The notes under the pieces are model-generated. The model did not search any database. It saw nothing but the letters and a program-made list of their open reading frames with translations, and had not been told where the DNA came from. DNA of 64,000 nt from an uncultured Croceitalea sp. (GTDB lineage: Bacteria; Bacteroidota; Bacteroidia; Flavobacteriales; Flavobacteriaceae): positions 1 through 64,000 of the forward strand of contig CANNDD010000007.1 in assembly GCA_947503285.1 (NCBI GenBank). Reading direction: 5' to 3'. This document shows, one piece after another, positions 1-37,789 of this stretch. A program made the position numbers and the translations under genes. Numbering within the stretch: position 1 is the first letter of the stretch; each line of letters begins with the position of its first letter.

Positions 1-1977
1 CACATAGCCATCGGTAGGCTGCCCCTCCACGTTGTCGGGGATGCCGTCATCGTCGGAATCGATGTCAAGGTGGTCGGGGATACCGTCGCCGTCACTGTCC
101 AAGGGGTCCGTCAAGGGATCACCGTCGCCGTCAGCGTTAGGGTCCTCCTCCGTATCCAGGATACCGTCGTTGTCGTCATCGATATCCGTGACGTCGGGTA
201 CACCGTCGCCGTCCGTATCGGGACCCTCGTCGTTGTCCGGGTCCAGGTAATCCGGCGTACCGTCATCGTCGGTATCGTCGTTGGTGGGGTCGCCGTCACC
301 GTTATCGTCCTCATCGGGCGTGTCGATACCGTCGCCGTCATCGTCAAGGTCCCTATAGTTGACGTCCTCGGTACCGTCCGTGTCGGGAAGGTCGTTCGCA
401 GGGTCGTCGATCTCATCGTTAACGTCGAAGCCGTCATCAACGTCACCGCCCTCGTAGCCATCGTCCAGGCCGTCACCGTCGGTGTCCTCGCCGGTAAACG
501 CCTGGTCGGGCTCACCGTCCTCGTTGAAGTCGTTGCCCTCGTTGTTGTCGGGTACCAGATCGTTGTCACTGTCATCGTCAAGGTAGTCAGGATTGTCAAT
601 ACCATCAGTATTATCAGGGTTTAATCCTTCAAAATCACCATTATCATAGGCATCATCCAAACCATCTCCATCTGAATCCTCACCAGTTGGGGGGATATAG
701 CCCTCGGTAGGCTGCCCCTCTACGTTGTCGGGGATGCCGTCGTTGTCTGAGTCGATGTCTACCCTATCTGGAAATCCGTCATTATCTGAATCTACGTCAT
801 CACTAAAAGTTGTCGTCTGCGGGTCGAGAAAGTTTTCTAAACAAGCAAACTGAATACCTGATTGCCTGACTATAGTTTGAAAATTGTCATTGGTCGATGT
901 CTGCACACCGAATCTAAAAACAAAGGTGGAAATGTCAACAAACTCCACTAATACATTTACGGATGGATTAGCACTTGAAATTCCATTGAACTCTTGCGTT
1001 CCCCCGTTTATTAAAAGGCCTCCAGAAGTATTACTTACCGAAACATCCGTTGGGTTATCAATGGTAAAACTGACAGGGGTATCGAATCTATTGAACTCTT
1101 GAAAACGTCCATTACCATCAACATCTATAAAACCAGCCACCAATTGTTCTAAAACCCTTGGGTTTATTGTTCCAGCGTCAACCAACGAAATCCTTAAATC
1201 CACAAATGGTCTTCTGACGTCATCAGTGAACTCAAATTGAATTTCAGGTTTGAAAAATTCTGGATCCACATTGTTTTGGTCCAATACATCTATTCTACCG
1301 TTTTGAATAGTCTCGATGCTAATCAAGGCATCAATTCCGGCACCAACATTTGTTATTCTAAATACGGAACCTTCTGTAAAACCATCTCCTGATTCTAAAA
1401 CTGGCGGGGTACTAAAATCTAGATTGGGCACGTTGGCACAATCCACTCCAGCACTTTGCGAGCTTGATTCCGTTTGATCTAGAATACCATCATTATCGGA
1501 GTCGATGTCCAAATAGTCCGCAACCAAATCCCCTTCAGTATCTACAGGAGTTAATCCTTCGCCTCCCCCCGGGGTACTTTCAAATGCATCGTCCAATCCA
1601 TTACGATCTTGGTCCATATCGGATGGCGTGATAATATTCAAGGCACTCTGAGCCTCAATATCATCGAAAATACCGTCATTGTCAGAATCCCTATCCAAAT
1701 AATTAGGTAGCCCATCGCTATCGGTATCGGTAGGGTTCGTAGTGGGATCATTATCCCCATCGGAATTATCGTCTTCGATAGTATCCAAAATACCATCACC
1801 ATCGTCATCAATATCAATATTGTCAGCGACACCATCGCCGTCAGTGTCGATAGTACTATTTAACGTAATCGATTCAGGATGGTCAAAGGAAGTTAATAAG
1901 AAGAGTGCAAAACTGAATATAAAAATGCAGCCCACAAATCTCCTTAGTAGGAGATTTGATAAAGTAAATTTTTCCAT
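1..1977 (-). CDS. Secreted thrombospondin type 3 repeat protein, N-terminal part (gene continues past the left edge)
   Basis: The frame is open for 659 codons from an ATG at 1977 to the window edge; I read it through and found no stop. The start gives a signal-like segment (basic residues, then GCIFIFSFALFLLTSF). It is followed by calcium-binding repeats of the form DxDGDGxxDxxDxDDDGDGIxD over about residues 45-160. A non-repetitive domain follows (about residues 175-390, beginning CANVPNLDF). A long second TSP3 block then runs to the edge. A unit of 231 codons is reused: the coding phrase SDxDGIPDNVEGQPT occurs near 1-66 and again near 694-759. TSP3 arrays are stiff Ca2+-binding stalks of cell-surface adhesins. 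In Bacteroidota such proteins usually end in a type 9 secretion tail, which would lie outside the window. The first 600 bases are much richer in G+C than the start of the gene. Confidence 0.88.
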   Translation of the reverse strand, partial: MEKFTLSNLLLRRFVGCIFIFSFALFLLTSFDHPESITLNSTIDTDGDGVADNIDIDDDGDGILDTIEDDNSDGDNDPTTNPTDTDSDGLPNYLDRDSDNDGIFDDIEAQSALNIITPSDMDQDRNGLDDAFESTPGGGEGLTPVDTEGDLVADYLDIDSDNDGILDQTESSSQSAGVDCANVPNLDFSTPPVLESGDGFTEGSVFRITNVGAGIDALISIETIQNGRIDVLDQNNVDPEFFKPEIQFEFTDDVRRPFVDLRISLVDAGTINPRVLEQLVAGFIDVDGNGRFQEFNRFDTPVSFTIDNPTDVSVSNTSGGLLINGGTQEFNGISSANPSVNVLVEFVDISTFVFRFGVQTSTNDNFQTIVRQSGIQFACLENFLDPQTTTFSDDVDSDNDGFPDRVDIDSDNDGIPDNVEGQPTEGYIPPTGEDSDGDGLDDAYDNGDFEGLNPDNTDGIDNPDYLDDDSDNDLVPDNNEGNDFNEDGEPDQAFTGEDTDGDGLDDGYEGGDVDDGFDVNDEIDDPANDLPDTDGTEDVNYRDLDDDGDGIDTPDEDDNGDGDPTNDDTDDDGTPDYLDPDNDEGPDTDGDGVPDVTDIDDDNDGILDTEEDPNADGDGDPLTDPLDSDGDGIPDHLDIDSDDDGIPDNVEGQPTDGYV

Positions 1978-34778: not shown

Positions 34779-35426
34779 ATGAAATTAAAGGTATGCGGAA
34801 TGAAATACAATCCCAAAGCGGTTGCTACCTTGCAGCCTGATTATTTGGGTTTTATATTCTGGGAAAAATCAGCCCGTTACTTTGACGGTCAAATTCCTCC
34901 GCTTCCACTTGGAACAAAAAAAATAGGGGTCTTTGTCAATGCTTCGTTAGCAGAGGTTTTGGAAAAAGTCAAAAAGTATCATTTAAATGGGGTACAGCTA
35001 CACGGTCAAGAAAGTCCGGAATATTGCAAAAACTTAAAAAAAGCTTTGATTGATGAAGTCTCGACTGCATTCGACCTCATAATCATCAAAGTCTTTTCTA
35101 TAAAAGATACGTTTGATTTTAATGTGCTCGAGCCTTTTGAAGAGTTCTGCGATTATTATTTATTTGATACCAAAGGAAAACTTCCTGGTGGAAATGGCTA
35201 TACTTTTGATTGGTCCGTTTTAAAGGATTATCCTTCTACAAAACCTTATTTTTTAAGTGGTGGTATAAGACTGAACGAAGCCGATGCCCTTCATGAGTTC
35301 TCAAAAAGACCGGAATCACGGTATTGCCATGCCATTGATGTAAATAGTGGTTTTGAATCAAGACCGGGATTCAAAAAAATTGATGAATTGGAAAAGTTTA
35401 AACATTTATTAACTGACAAAGAATGA
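34779..35426 (+). CDS. trpF: Phosphoribosylanthranilate isomerase
   Basis: This 215-residue TIM-barrel isomerase has a catalytic Cys in KVCGMKYNP near residue 5, then PDYLGFIFWEKSARYF, VQLHGQESPEYC near 76-87, the general acid Asp in FDTKGKLPGGNG near 128 and FLSGGIRLNEA near 156-166. The ATG at 34779 (MKLKVCGMKYN) is preferred to a TTG at 34740. That TTG sits next to a small hairpin (TTTTCCT/AGGAAAA, 34733-34749) in the trpC-trpF gap. Its stop overlaps the trpB start (ATGA), coupling the two. Confidence 0.95.
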   Translation: MKLKVCGMKYNPKAVATLQPDYLGFIFWEKSARYFDGQIPPLPLGTKKIGVFVNASLAEVLEKVKKYHLNGVQLHGQESPEYCKNLKKALIDEVSTAFDLIIIKVFSIKDTFDFNVLEPFEEFCDYYLFDTKGKLPGGNGYTFDWSVLKDYPSTKPYFLSGGIRLNEADALHEFSKRPESRYCHAIDVNSGFESRPGFKKIDELEKFKHLLTDKE

Positions 35427-36604
35427 CCTATCACGCAAACGAAAAAGGGTATTATGGTGAATTCGGGGGTGCATTTATTCCTGAAATGCTGTATCCCAAT
35501 GTAGAAGAGTTACGACGGAACTATTTGGATATTATGTATGAGGATTCTTTTCAAAAAGAATTCCATGGTTTACTTAAAGACTATGTCGGCAGGCCTTCCC
35601 CACTTTATTTCGCCAAGCGCCTCTCTGAAAAGCATGGCACGAAAGTTTATCTCAAACGAGAGGACTTAAATCATACTGGGGCCCACAAGGTCAATAATAC
35701 CATTGGGCAAATATTGATGGCAAAAAGATTGGGCAAGACCCGCATTATCGCCGAGACCGGGGCAGGTCAACATGGTGTGGCGACTGCAACGGTCTGCGCC
35801 CTTATGGGTATGGAATGCATTGTATATATGGGTGAAATCGATATCGCCCGTCAGGCACCAAACGTTGCACGTATGAAAATGTTGGGGGCTTCGGTTCGAC
35901 CCGCACTTTCGGGTAGCCGAACCTTAAAAGATGCGACCAACGAAGCCATACGGGATTGGATAAACAATCCGGTCGACACCCACTATATTATCGGTTCGGC
36001 CATTGGCCCACACCCCTACCCCGATATGGTCACTCGATTTCAGTCGGTCATCTCTGAAGAAATCAAATGGCAGTTAAAAGGGAAAGAAGGTCGTGAGAAC
36101 CCTGATTATGTGGTCGCCTGTATTGGTGGTGGTAGCAATGCTGCTGGAACGTACCATCATTTTTTAGAGGAACCCAACGTAGGTATTATCGCCGTCGAAG
36201 CTGCAGGAAAAGGTGTGGAAACCGGTGAAAGCGCAGCTACTTCTGCCCTTGGTAAAGTTGGTATCATCCATGGTTGTAAGACCATGTTGATGCAAACGCC
36301 AGACGGACAAATAACCGAGCCGTATTCCATTTCTGCTGGGTTGGACTATCCGGGGGTGGGGCCTATGCATTCGCATTTATATAAATCTGGCCGTGCCGAG
36401 TTTTACTCCGCTACCGATGATGAGGCGATGACCGCCGGATTGGAACTTTCACAATTGGAGGGTATTATTCCGGCCATTGAAACTGGCCATGCCTTCGCTA
36501 TTTTTCAGCATAAAAAATTCAAACCGGATGATGTCGTCGTGATCAGCTTATCAGGTCGTGGTGATAAAGATTTGCAGACGTATATTGATTATTTTAAACT
36601 TTAG
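35423..36604 (+). CDS. trpB: Tryptophan synthase beta chain
   Basis: This 393-residue PLP enzyme joins indole with serine. The PLP Lys lies in KREDLNHTGAHKVNNTIGQI (Lys near residue 87), with ETGAGQHGVATATVCALMG near 109-127, the phosphate-binding CIGGGSNAAGTYHHF near 231 and SAGLDYPGVGP near 301. It is translationally coupled to trpF through ATGA. A 423-base gap containing the IR-bounded element separates it from trpA, its partner subunit, which is normally adjacent or overlapping. Confidence 0.98.
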   Translation: MTYHANEKGYYGEFGGAFIPEMLYPNVEELRRNYLDIMYEDSFQKEFHGLLKDYVGRPSPLYFAKRLSEKHGTKVYLKREDLNHTGAHKVNNTIGQILMAKRLGKTRIIAETGAGQHGVATATVCALMGMECIVYMGEIDIARQAPNVARMKMLGASVRPALSGSRTLKDATNEAIRDWINNPVDTHYIIGSAIGPHPYPDMVTRFQSVISEEIKWQLKGKEGRENPDYVVACIGGGSNAAGTYHHFLEEPNVGIIAVEAAGKGVETGESAATSALGKVGIIHGCKTMLMQTPDGQITEPYSISAGLDYPGVGPMHSHLYKSGRAEFYSATDDEAMTAGLELSQLEGIIPAIETGHAFAIFQHKKFKPDDVVVISLSGRGDKDLQTYIDYFKL

Positions 36605-36613
36605 ATTGTTTTT

Positions 36614-36637
36614 GTCATTCCCGCGTAGGCGGGAATC
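36614..36637. repeat. Left palindromic inverted repeat of the GIY-YIG unit
   Basis: ATTCCCGC (36617-36624) and GCGGGAAT (36629-36636) form an 8-bp stem with a GTAG loop, with GTC before and C after. The whole 24-mer recurs inverted at 36994-37017. In RNA it would be a stable hairpin directly after trpB. Confidence 0.9.
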
Positions 36638-36664
36638 CTATAAAATGATTGCGATTCCAATTAA

Positions 36665-36941
36665 ATGGAAAATTATTATACATACTGACCAACAAAAATC
36701 ATACAGTATTGTATGTTGGAATGACAAATAATCTAAAGCTGAGATTACAACAACACCAATCAAAACAAAACAAAACAAAGGATTTACAAAAAAATATAAT
36801 GTTCATAAATTGGTATACTTTGAAAAAATAACATATGTGAACAATGCCATCAAAAGAGAAAAGCAAATAAAACACTGGAATCGGCAATGGAAAGAGAATT
36901 TAATTAATGATATGAATCCGGACTGGGAAAATCTTTCTTAG
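36665..36941 (+). pseudogene. GIY-YIG nuclease-domain gene, broken by two frameshifts
   Basis: Joining three frames gives a small GIY-YIG protein of about 90 residues of the YhbQ/UPF0213 kind. It reads MENYY, then YILTNKNHTVLYVGMTNNLK (YIL and YVG in place of GIY and YIG), the conserved Arg in LRLQQHQSKQ, then GFTKKYNVHKLVYFEKITYV with NNAIKREKQIKHWNRQWK (metal-site Glu in KREKQ) and the end DMNPDWENLS. Frame breaks lie near 36676-36683 (the ATG frame meets TGA at 36686-36688) and in the CAAAA-repeat at about 36762-36780. Catalytic residues survive, so decay is recent or the breaks are sequence errors. Confidence 0.8.
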
Positions 36942-36993
36942 ATGTTGGAAGAAGGGCCTTAAATTTTAAAAAATCATAAGAACACATTAAAAA

Positions 36994-37017
36994 GATTCCC
37001 GCCTACGCGGGAATGAC
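36994..37017. repeat. Right palindromic inverted repeat of the GIY-YIG unit
   Basis: This is the exact reverse complement of 36614-36637, with stem ATTCCCGC and GCGGGAAT around a CTAC loop. It contains an in-frame ATG (37013) upstream of the real trpA start, so it can alter how trpA translation begins. Confidence 0.9.
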
Positions 37018-37027
37018 AGATAATATA

Positions 37028-37789
37028 ATGAACAGAATTAACCAAAAATTACAAGAGGACAAAAAACTCCTCTCCATATATTTCACTGCTGGATATCCAA
37101 AACTAAACGACACGATAAAAATCATTCAAGATTTAGAAAAAAACGGCGTTGATATGATTGAAATCGGGTTGCCTTTTAGTGATCCTTTAGCAGACGGGCC
37201 GACCATACAAGGCAGTTCAACAGCTGCCCTAAAAAATGGAATGACCACGGAAAAACTATTTGACCAATTAAAGGACATTCGCAAAACGGTTTCCATTCCT
37301 TTGATTGTTATGGGCTATTTTAATCCGATGTTGCAATATGGTGTGGAAGCATTTTGCGCCAAATGCCATGAAATCGGTATTGATGGTATTATTATGCCTG
37401 ACCTTCCATTAGCTATTTATCAAGAAGACTACCAAGCCATTTTTGAAAAAAATGGGCTTATCAATATATTTTTAATCACTCCCCAAACCAGTGAAGAACG
37501 TATTCGACAAATTGACGCAGCTTCTGACGGATTTATCTACATGGTCAGTTCGGCCAGTGTAACGGGATCAAAATCAGGTTTTGGAAATGAGCAAACAACC
37601 TATTTTGAGCGCATTGCCAAAATGGGTTTAAGCAACCCACAGATCGTAGGTTTTGGCATCAAAGACCAAGAAACCTTTCAACAGGCCACCAAAATGACAA
37701 AAGGGGCTATTATTGGTTCTGCTTTTATTAAATTTATAACCGAAAAGGGAATTGGTGATATTGACGGGTTTATTAATAAAATCCGGTAA
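37028..37789 (+). CDS. trpA: Tryptophan synthase alpha chain
   Basis: This 253-residue TIM barrel cleaves indole-3-glycerol phosphate. The catalytic Glu lies in DMIEIGLPFSDPLADGPTIQ (near residues 45-64). VMGYFNPMLQYG is near 98, GIIMPDLPLAIYQEDY is near 122 and GFIYMVSSASVTGSKSG near 172 holds the phosphate loop start. The ATG at 37028 gives MNRINQKLQEDKKLLS, the usual start. An ATG at 37013 lies inside the palindromic repeat and would add five non-family residues. It is the last gene of the trp operon, detached from trpB by the GIY-YIG unit. Confidence 0.96.
   Translation: MNRINQKLQEDKKLLSIYFTAGYPKLNDTIKIIQDLEKNGVDMIEIGLPFSDPLADGPTIQGSSTAALKNGMTTEKLFDQLKDIRKTVSIPLIVMGYFNPMLQYGVEAFCAKCHEIGIDGIIMPDLPLAIYQEDYQAIFEKNGLINIFLITPQTSEERIRQIDAASDGFIYMVSSASVTGSKSGFGNEQTTYFERIAKMGLSNPQIVGFGIKDQETFQQATKMTKGAIIGSAFIKFITEKGIGDIDGFINKIR

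Follow-up and report, generated by a model that had tools for sequence, protein, structure and literature searches.

Small GIY-YIG nuclease genes lie between matching CGTC-type palindromes and may mobilise these bacterial repeats

Many small GIY-YIG nuclease genes of bacteria are bracketed by matching palindromes. This match is seen even between paralogues within one genome, and the sites are polymorphic. The arrangement repeats the pattern known from RAYT transposases and GTAG REPs (inverted REPs, specific pairing, gene-free copies, polymorphism), and we therefore favour the GIY-YIG proteins as the probable mobilisers of the CGTC REPs, that is, as RAYT-like "REPtrons" built on an unrelated nuclease. 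The unit from which this analysis starts lies in the window, the whole stretch of 64,000 nucleotides analysed from an uncultured Croceitalea sp. (genome G000). It is apparently a member, now broken, of a widespread element class.

Background

The CGTC superfamily is one of two superfamilies of REPs, and it was described in 2013, in the part of the paper available to us, as one that apparently lacks "a dedicated transposase" (Di Nocera 2013, PMC3733652). Tag variants of the CGTC REPs are TGTC and CCTC. The CGTC-1 REPs have a CGTC or TGTC tag, a stem of 8 or 9 that starts with AT, a loop of 4 or 5 and a tail that is mostly CCA, and they occur predominantly as head-to-head (HH) dimers with the tags outside (PMC3733652). 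They include dRS3 of Neisseria and RPE-6 of Rickettsia conorii, and A. lipoferum, S. meliloti and the Neisseriae are among the hosts of CGTC REPs (PMC3733652). The GTAG REPs are held to be moved by RAYTs (PMC3733652).

In the open PubMed Central papers we found no link of GIY-YIG proteins to REPs, RAYT, REPIN, dRS3 or miniature inverted repeats, and none of UPF0213/COG2827 to palindromes. The terms "repetitive extragenic palindrom" and GIY-YIG met there only in a gene-table listing, and a 2021 REPIN paper has no mention of Neisseria, CGTC or GIY. A prior description outside the open PubMed Central papers is possible.

Results

The unit between trpB and trpA

The unit is located between the ORFs of trpB (35423 to 36604, forward strand) and trpA (37028 to 37789, forward strand). 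The first-pass annotation had described exact inverted ends, each a palindrome in itself, around an insert at this junction, and this is confirmed. The ends are exact reverse complements over 24 nt (36614-36637 and 36994-37017), or over 25 nt with the adjoining T/A (36613-36637 and 36994-37018), and each contains the 20-nt palindrome ATTCCCGC-GTAG-GCGGGAAT. From the trpB TAG to the unit there are 9 nt, and from its end to the trpA ATG at 37028 likewise 9 nt; the first-pass annotation had given 9 and 10. An alternative in-frame trpA ATG at 37013 falls within the right palindrome. Inverted 16-mer pairs no more than 800 bp apart occur at only two places in the 64-kb window, this unit and 50452/50892. 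Direct repeats of a GTCGCCGTC pattern are present at the start of the window (4-780).

The left palindrome (36613 to 36637, forward strand) is composed of an unpaired TGTC tag, the 8-bp stem ATTCCCGC/GCGGGAAT, the loop GTAG and the tail CCT. The right palindrome (36994 to 37018, reverse strand) is its inverted copy, again with an unpaired TGTC tag and with the tail CTT. The tags of both ends face outward, which makes the pair an HH dimer. The TGTC tag, the 8-bp stem starting with AT and the 4-nt loop are those of the CGTC-1 definition (PMC3733652), and the two tails are near CCA, not identical to it. The palindrome is repetitive and forms HH dimers, but its copy number is low: G000 (4.34 Mb in 29 contigs) has 5 sites of the ATTCCCGC palindrome, which are two HH pairs and one single, namely the window pair, a gene-free pair with a short spacer at C2:231603-231681, and the single copy. 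The pattern is thus far from the thousands of sites that the first-pass annotation had named as evidence against its reading. The reversed pattern, used as a control, has 0 matches in G000 and 0 in 149 genomes of the family. The palindrome is not of a new kind; it fits the published CGTC-1 type, which it resembles (dRS3, RPE-6) in its TGTC/CGTC tag, 8-bp AT-stem, 4-nt loop, short unpaired tail and HH dimers. The published elements were described as apparently without a dedicated transposase; here a GIY-YIG gene lies inside the dimer.

This gene is present in two pieces on the forward strand. The 5' part (36649 to 36831, frame 1) contains the GIY and YIG motifs, and its stretch 36649-36828 matches the PF01541 profile at 40.6 bits (cut-off 22.6). 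The 3' part (36774 to 36941, shifted frame) is 60% identical to the intact paralogue P0001, scores 21.9 bits, slightly below the same cut-off, and terminates in ...NPDWENLS-stop. The enclosed GIY-YIG gene reported earlier is therefore real as to its family, but this copy is broken by a frameshift at an AAAAC repeat. The assembly being a draft, the frameshift may be a sequencing error.

The enzyme

The protein is of the UPF0213 type, for which we take COG2827 to be the COG. Like the members of that group it has PF01541 as its single domain in about 100 aa (61.9 bits for P0001; 40.6 and 21.9 for the pieces in the window). The nearest solved relative is 1zg2, the UPF0213 protein BH0048, and the likeness is one of both sequence and fold. 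A structure model of a Kordia member (L179) has a mean pLDDT of 96.6, and its best PDB matches are BH0048, EF2693, Slx1, UvrC and I-TevI, none at E<0.001 (best 0.02, probability 1.00). Alignments of the GIY-YIG proteins have invariant Y, Y, G, R, E and N columns. The Tyr, Arg, Glu and Asn columns are presumably the catalytic residues, as in I-TevI.

Other GIY-YIG genes and palindromes of the genome

The PF01541 profile matches G000 at 14 places. Small GIY-YIG genes with different inverted palindromes are found at L001 (26-nt pair), at L002 (30-nt pair) and, with a weaker 14-nt pair, at L003. The tags at L001 point toward the gene, opposite to those of the window unit. Of the 11 copies of a TCGAGCGNAGTCGA core in the genome, the two on the flanks of L001 have GGAG and the two on those of L002 have GCAG. 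No inverted pair of at least 12 nt was found in the scan around the genes L005-L010 and L012-L014. Three of these (L008, L009 and L012) are consecutive matches at a contig end (C10:193-1147), one of them with stops, and the second and third each adjoin, before or after, an identical AAACCCCGCAAGTAGCGGGGTTT hairpin.

All 12 exact matches of GTCATTCCTGCNNNNGCAGGAATC in G000 lie at C4:326815-329055 and surround the intact paralogue (L004, C4:327766-328062), as an array of twelve ATTCCTGC palindromes in the same direction on both sides of it, alternating with GATTCCAAAACAAGTTTGGAATGAC-like partners.

Association of GIY-YIG genes with tagged palindromes across bacteria

A tblastn survey of plasmids with the intact paralogue matched 34 records, 24 from Rhizobium, Sphingobium, Sinorhizobium or Shinella and the rest including Azospirillum lipoferum and Neisseria. 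Twelve plasmid loci were examined. Inverted tagged palindromes bracket the gene in five (L105, L108, L110, L113, L114), and at L109 tagged palindromes are present on both sides in the same direction. Tagged palindromes stand only upstream of the gene at L107 and only downstream of it at L106. None is present at L104 or L112, and L111 and L115 have only unconvincing hairpins.

The survey of genome contigs covered the best 80 of 571 confirmed relatives, 77 of them with full flanks. Among these 77 loci, tagged palindromes occur within 400 nt on both sides of the gene in 36, in HH orientation in 30 and on at least one side in 50. Random placements in the same loci gave 6 both-sided, 2 HH and 64 at least one-sided cases in 1540, and mechanically called control ORFs were both-sided within 400 nt in 3 of 441. 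The distance from the gene to each REP, and from the end of the upstream palindrome to the gene, is often about 20 nt. The both-sided loci span contigs of Proteobacteria, Bacteroidota, Armatimonadota, Nitrospirota and CPR, many of which are metagenome bins whose assignment can be wrong. In the same sample of the best 80 of 571, 27 of the 77 loci, for example copies from Mesorhizobium and Caulobacter, are free of tagged palindromes over the 400 nt to each side. Contigs that IMG/VR classes as viral also carry GIY-YIG genes flanked by CGTC palindromes (L093, L098-L101).

REPs are intergenic, and related species may share both gene and palindrome, so a coincidence of position or of ancestry has to be considered. 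Within 130 nt, both-sided palindromes accompany 26 of the 77 GIY-YIG loci (best 80 of 571) against 2 of 505 other ORFs, and 1 of 207 when the control ORFs are at most 600 bp.

Hairpins were also sought without any tag requirement at 221 loci (one of 222 was dropped). Within 130 nt, they flank the gene on both sides at 112 loci and on at least one side at 163. The both-sided cases are 55 of 111 in the family, 40 of 80 on genome contigs (the best 80 of 571), 8 of 12 on plasmids and 9 of 18 on viral contigs. Control ORFs, taken from the genome-contig loci only, were both-sided in 17 of 514 and at least one-sided in 148 of 514. The stem is immediately preceded by GTC in 154 of the 275 nearest hairpins (for the genome-contig set, best 80 of 571, in 60 of 101) and in 12 of 165 controls. 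The commonest combinations of stem and loop are 8/4, 8/5 and 9/5, and the commonest tail is CCA. The GTC, the stems of 8 and 9 and the CCA tail thus recover the CGTC REP definition without its having been an input. In one protein group (L227, L228, L231, L253, L254) the palindrome tags are mostly TTTC instead of GTC.

Two procedures were abandoned. A cross-locus null for inverted repeats (arms with a score of at least 15: 11 of 30 loci, 84 of 870 cross pairs) was inflated by the sharing of one palindrome family among loci, and random placements, ORF controls and within-genome shuffles took its place. A loose regular expression for the GIY-YIG motif missed even the known gene.

The type of palindrome follows the type of protein

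The upstream and downstream palindromes of one gene have a similarity of 0.794, against 0.525 in shuffled pairs with a maximum of 0.567 in 500 (n=112). Protein identity is correlated with palindrome similarity (Mantel 0.44, n=163), and none of 500 permutations exceeded 0.10. Among the family loci, 78 have a palindrome, and their Mantel value is 0.59. When palindromes were exchanged only between paralogues within a genome (20 genomes, 53 loci), the value was 0.228 +/- 0.053 with a maximum of 0.458, and 0 of 2000 such shuffles reached 0.59. On a protein tree of 116 tips, 11 changes of loop class (4 or 5) are needed; shuffled classes need 38.5 on average and at least 29 in 500. Both loop classes occur within one genome in six genomes.

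Within-genome shuffles hold host ancestry fixed. Chance or shared ancestry is contradicted by these shuffles together with the ORF controls and is hardly credible. The first-pass annotation had called the nuclease gene a passenger. It looks rather like the cognate partner of its palindromes, the type of palindrome tracking the type of protein.

The pairing is visible between close paralogues. Two GIY-YIG proteins of one genome (G051), 74% identical, have ATTCCTGCGCAGGCAGGAAT and ATTCCGCACTTGATGCGGAAT, respectively, each on both sides of its gene; one set is of the ATTCCTGC type and the other of the ATTCCGC type. Five columns separate 11 proteins of the ATTCCTGC type from 5 of the ATTCCGC type: two in a KxWxR motif (KKWKR versus KNWNR), one each at positions 57 and 88, and a fifth at the ragged N-terminus. 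These columns may reflect one ancestral split. Near-identical dispersed copies of whole units were not seen; the closest same-genome paralogues among the loci examined are 81% identical.

Palindromes in the family genomes and the Y1 transposases

The ATTCCTGC palindrome is carried by 42 of the 149 family genomes. Of the 15 genomes that have an L004-like gene 13 carry it, as do 29 of the 134 that have none (p=1e-6, uncorrected for genome size and phylogeny; the class is defined by a score above 115 bits, a cut set after the score list was seen). Any P0001 match at 1e-12 is a weaker predictor than this closer class (31 of 75 against 11 of 74, p=0.0005, also uncorrected for size and phylogeny). 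By contrast, the palindrome occurs in 18 of 59 genomes with Y1_Tnp and in 24 of 90 without (p=0.71, genome size and phylogeny uncorrected). In the family genomes, then, the palindrome goes with the matching GIY-YIG gene and not with Y1/RAYT transposases.

These counts bear on the suggestion that RAYT (Y1) transposases move the CGTC palindromes as well, with the GIY-YIG gene as a passenger. RAYTs are, after all, the enzymes held to move the GTAG REPs (PMC3733652), and G000 has one Y1_Tnp gene. This sole match (L055, C9:101438-101686) is bracketed by its own palindromes GCTACCGCC/AGTTTGCAACT, which on reading by eye are of the GTAG and not the CGTC type, and it is apparently a GTAG-type REPtron in the same genome as the window unit. 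In the available part of Di Nocera 2013 (PMC3733652) no tyrosine transposase gene flanked by CGTC REPs is reported. A passenger gene would also leave the match of palindrome and protein unexplained. With the p value of 0.71 this makes movement by RAYTs very improbable.

Many palindromes are far from any GIY-YIG gene. Eleven of the 42 palindrome-bearing genomes have no P0001 match at 1e-12, and one of these eleven (G103) carries 12 and 10 palindromes of the two types, yet no close GIY-YIG gene. A listed GIY-YIG gene is found within 500 nt of only 2 of the 23 palindromes of G051 and of none of the 15 of G117. This slightly raises the weight of homing, discussed below.

Polymorphic sites

The first-pass annotation had asked for junctions of trpB and trpA that lack the unit, and these exist. 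Among eight genomes of the genus, the window unit is present in G000, a different unit in G005, and neither in six, which have no tagged palindrome and no gene at the junction. In the G005 unit the GIY-YIG gene is another one, is intact and has CTGAACTTGTTTCAG-type palindromes on both sides. Palindromes of this type also bracket a relative of that gene in another genus (L083).

Comparable sites occur in Sphingobium and Azospirillum. Of 6 Sphingobium strains compared over 50 kb, 3 have a palindrome-gene-palindrome unit of 381 bp. At that spot two strains without it, TYG64 and TYG74 (imperfect), have one palindrome with a tag at each end, which looks like the outer halves of the two joined together, and other sequence stands there in TYG72 and in an additional strain, TYG65. 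A unit of Azospirillum lipoferum stands between sufB and sufC and splits them; three relatives, with 95.6-97.6% identity in the matched parts, have the two genes without it. No target-site duplication is evident in the six Sphingobium regions of 50 kb or in Azospirillum, where the alignments are too diverged at the junctions, and the compared sites caught no transposition event. Derivation of the short dimers from gene units by internal deletion was considered and set aside: ten dimers and nine units, compared by eye, have no obvious shared spacer.

The palindromes could serve as control elements of the GIY-YIG gene, as terminators or as an operator bound by the enzyme, rather than as mobile ends. 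The upstream palindrome often ends about 20 nt ahead of the gene, and hairpins can act in RNA. The same palindromes nevertheless occur elsewhere without a gene, in dimers and singly, and close relatives differ in whether they have a whole unit. We regard a purely regulatory role as very improbable.

Discussion

We propose an element class that consists of a head-to-head CGTC REP dimer whose spacer contains the gene of a single-domain GIY-YIG protein of about 90-100 aa (UPF0213/COG2827 type). Its proposed scope is contigs of Proteobacteria, Bacteroidota, CPR, Armatimonadota and Nitrospirota. The nuclease would recognise its own type of palindrome by tag and hairpin, and would spread such palindromes, sometimes together with its own gene, into intergenic sites. 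Cutting at the tag or the palindrome may drive the copying. The nuclease would thus have the role for the CGTC REPs that the RAYT tyrosine transposase has for the GTAG REPs. In G000, the product of the intact gene at C4:327766-328062 could also act on the broken unit of the window. The earlier notion of a unit of repeats and GIY-YIG gene distinct from the RAYT/REP system is upheld by the association across phyla, while its mobility by the GIY-YIG enzyme is what we infer.

The likeness to RAYTs and REPtrons lies in repeat-specific enzymes and in an enzyme gene between inverted REPs that are also found alone and as gene-free dimers. The difference lies in the enzyme and the tag. A REPtron has the gene of an HUH tyrosine transposase (Y1) between REPs tagged GTAG; here the gene is for the unrelated GIY-YIG protein (PF01541), the tag in the window unit is TGTC, and the palindromes are statistically independent of Y1_Tnp genes. 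MITEs and REPINs are similar as short inverted pairs without a gene. The ends here are themselves palindromes, as are those of REPINs, and no target-site duplication is evident at the diverged junctions compared.

The main rival to mobilisation by the GIY-YIG enzyme is homing, in which a free-standing GIY-YIG endonuclease gene enters CGTC REP dimers that already exist and the REPs owe their spread to another agent. The GIY-YIG fold is a classic one among homing enzymes, which cut the uninterrupted site only (PMC1564403, in the part available). The free-standing GIY-YIG homing endonucleases resemble the present proteins as lone nuclease genes amid host genes. For those of the phage Seg type we know of no flanking repeats. 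Several observations sit well with homing: the gene is in the spacer of the dimer, often about 20 nt from each REP; matching of palindrome and protein is expected here as well; the two gene-less Sphingobium strains have a single double-tagged palindrome at the site; and many REP-bearing genomes have no close GIY-YIG gene. Other observations do not. The 12 exact palindromes of the ATTCCTGC type in G000 cluster at one GIY-YIG gene, more like a local amplification than a population of dispersed targets, the presence of the palindrome rises with that of the matching gene in the family genomes, and none of the ten gene-free dimers has an obviously matching spacer. Homing is on balance unlikely, and clearly less so than the regulatory or RAYT alternatives.

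Conclusions

The GIY-YIG proteins are candidates for the missing enzyme of the CGTC REP superfamily. Whether the single-domain GIY-YIG proteins are a separate class of transposition enzymes, with a readable protein-to-hairpin code that would explain the CGTC superfamily including dRS3 and RPE-6, is in our estimate evenly poised. The matched set of enzymes and palindromes, with several specificities in single genomes, makes the question testable in vitro. If the reading is true, a GIY-YIG enzyme would be added to the ways in which bacterial genomes gain repeats, a large family of small nucleases would have a role, and a compact set would be at hand in which to study the recognition of DNA hairpins by proteins of about 90 residues.
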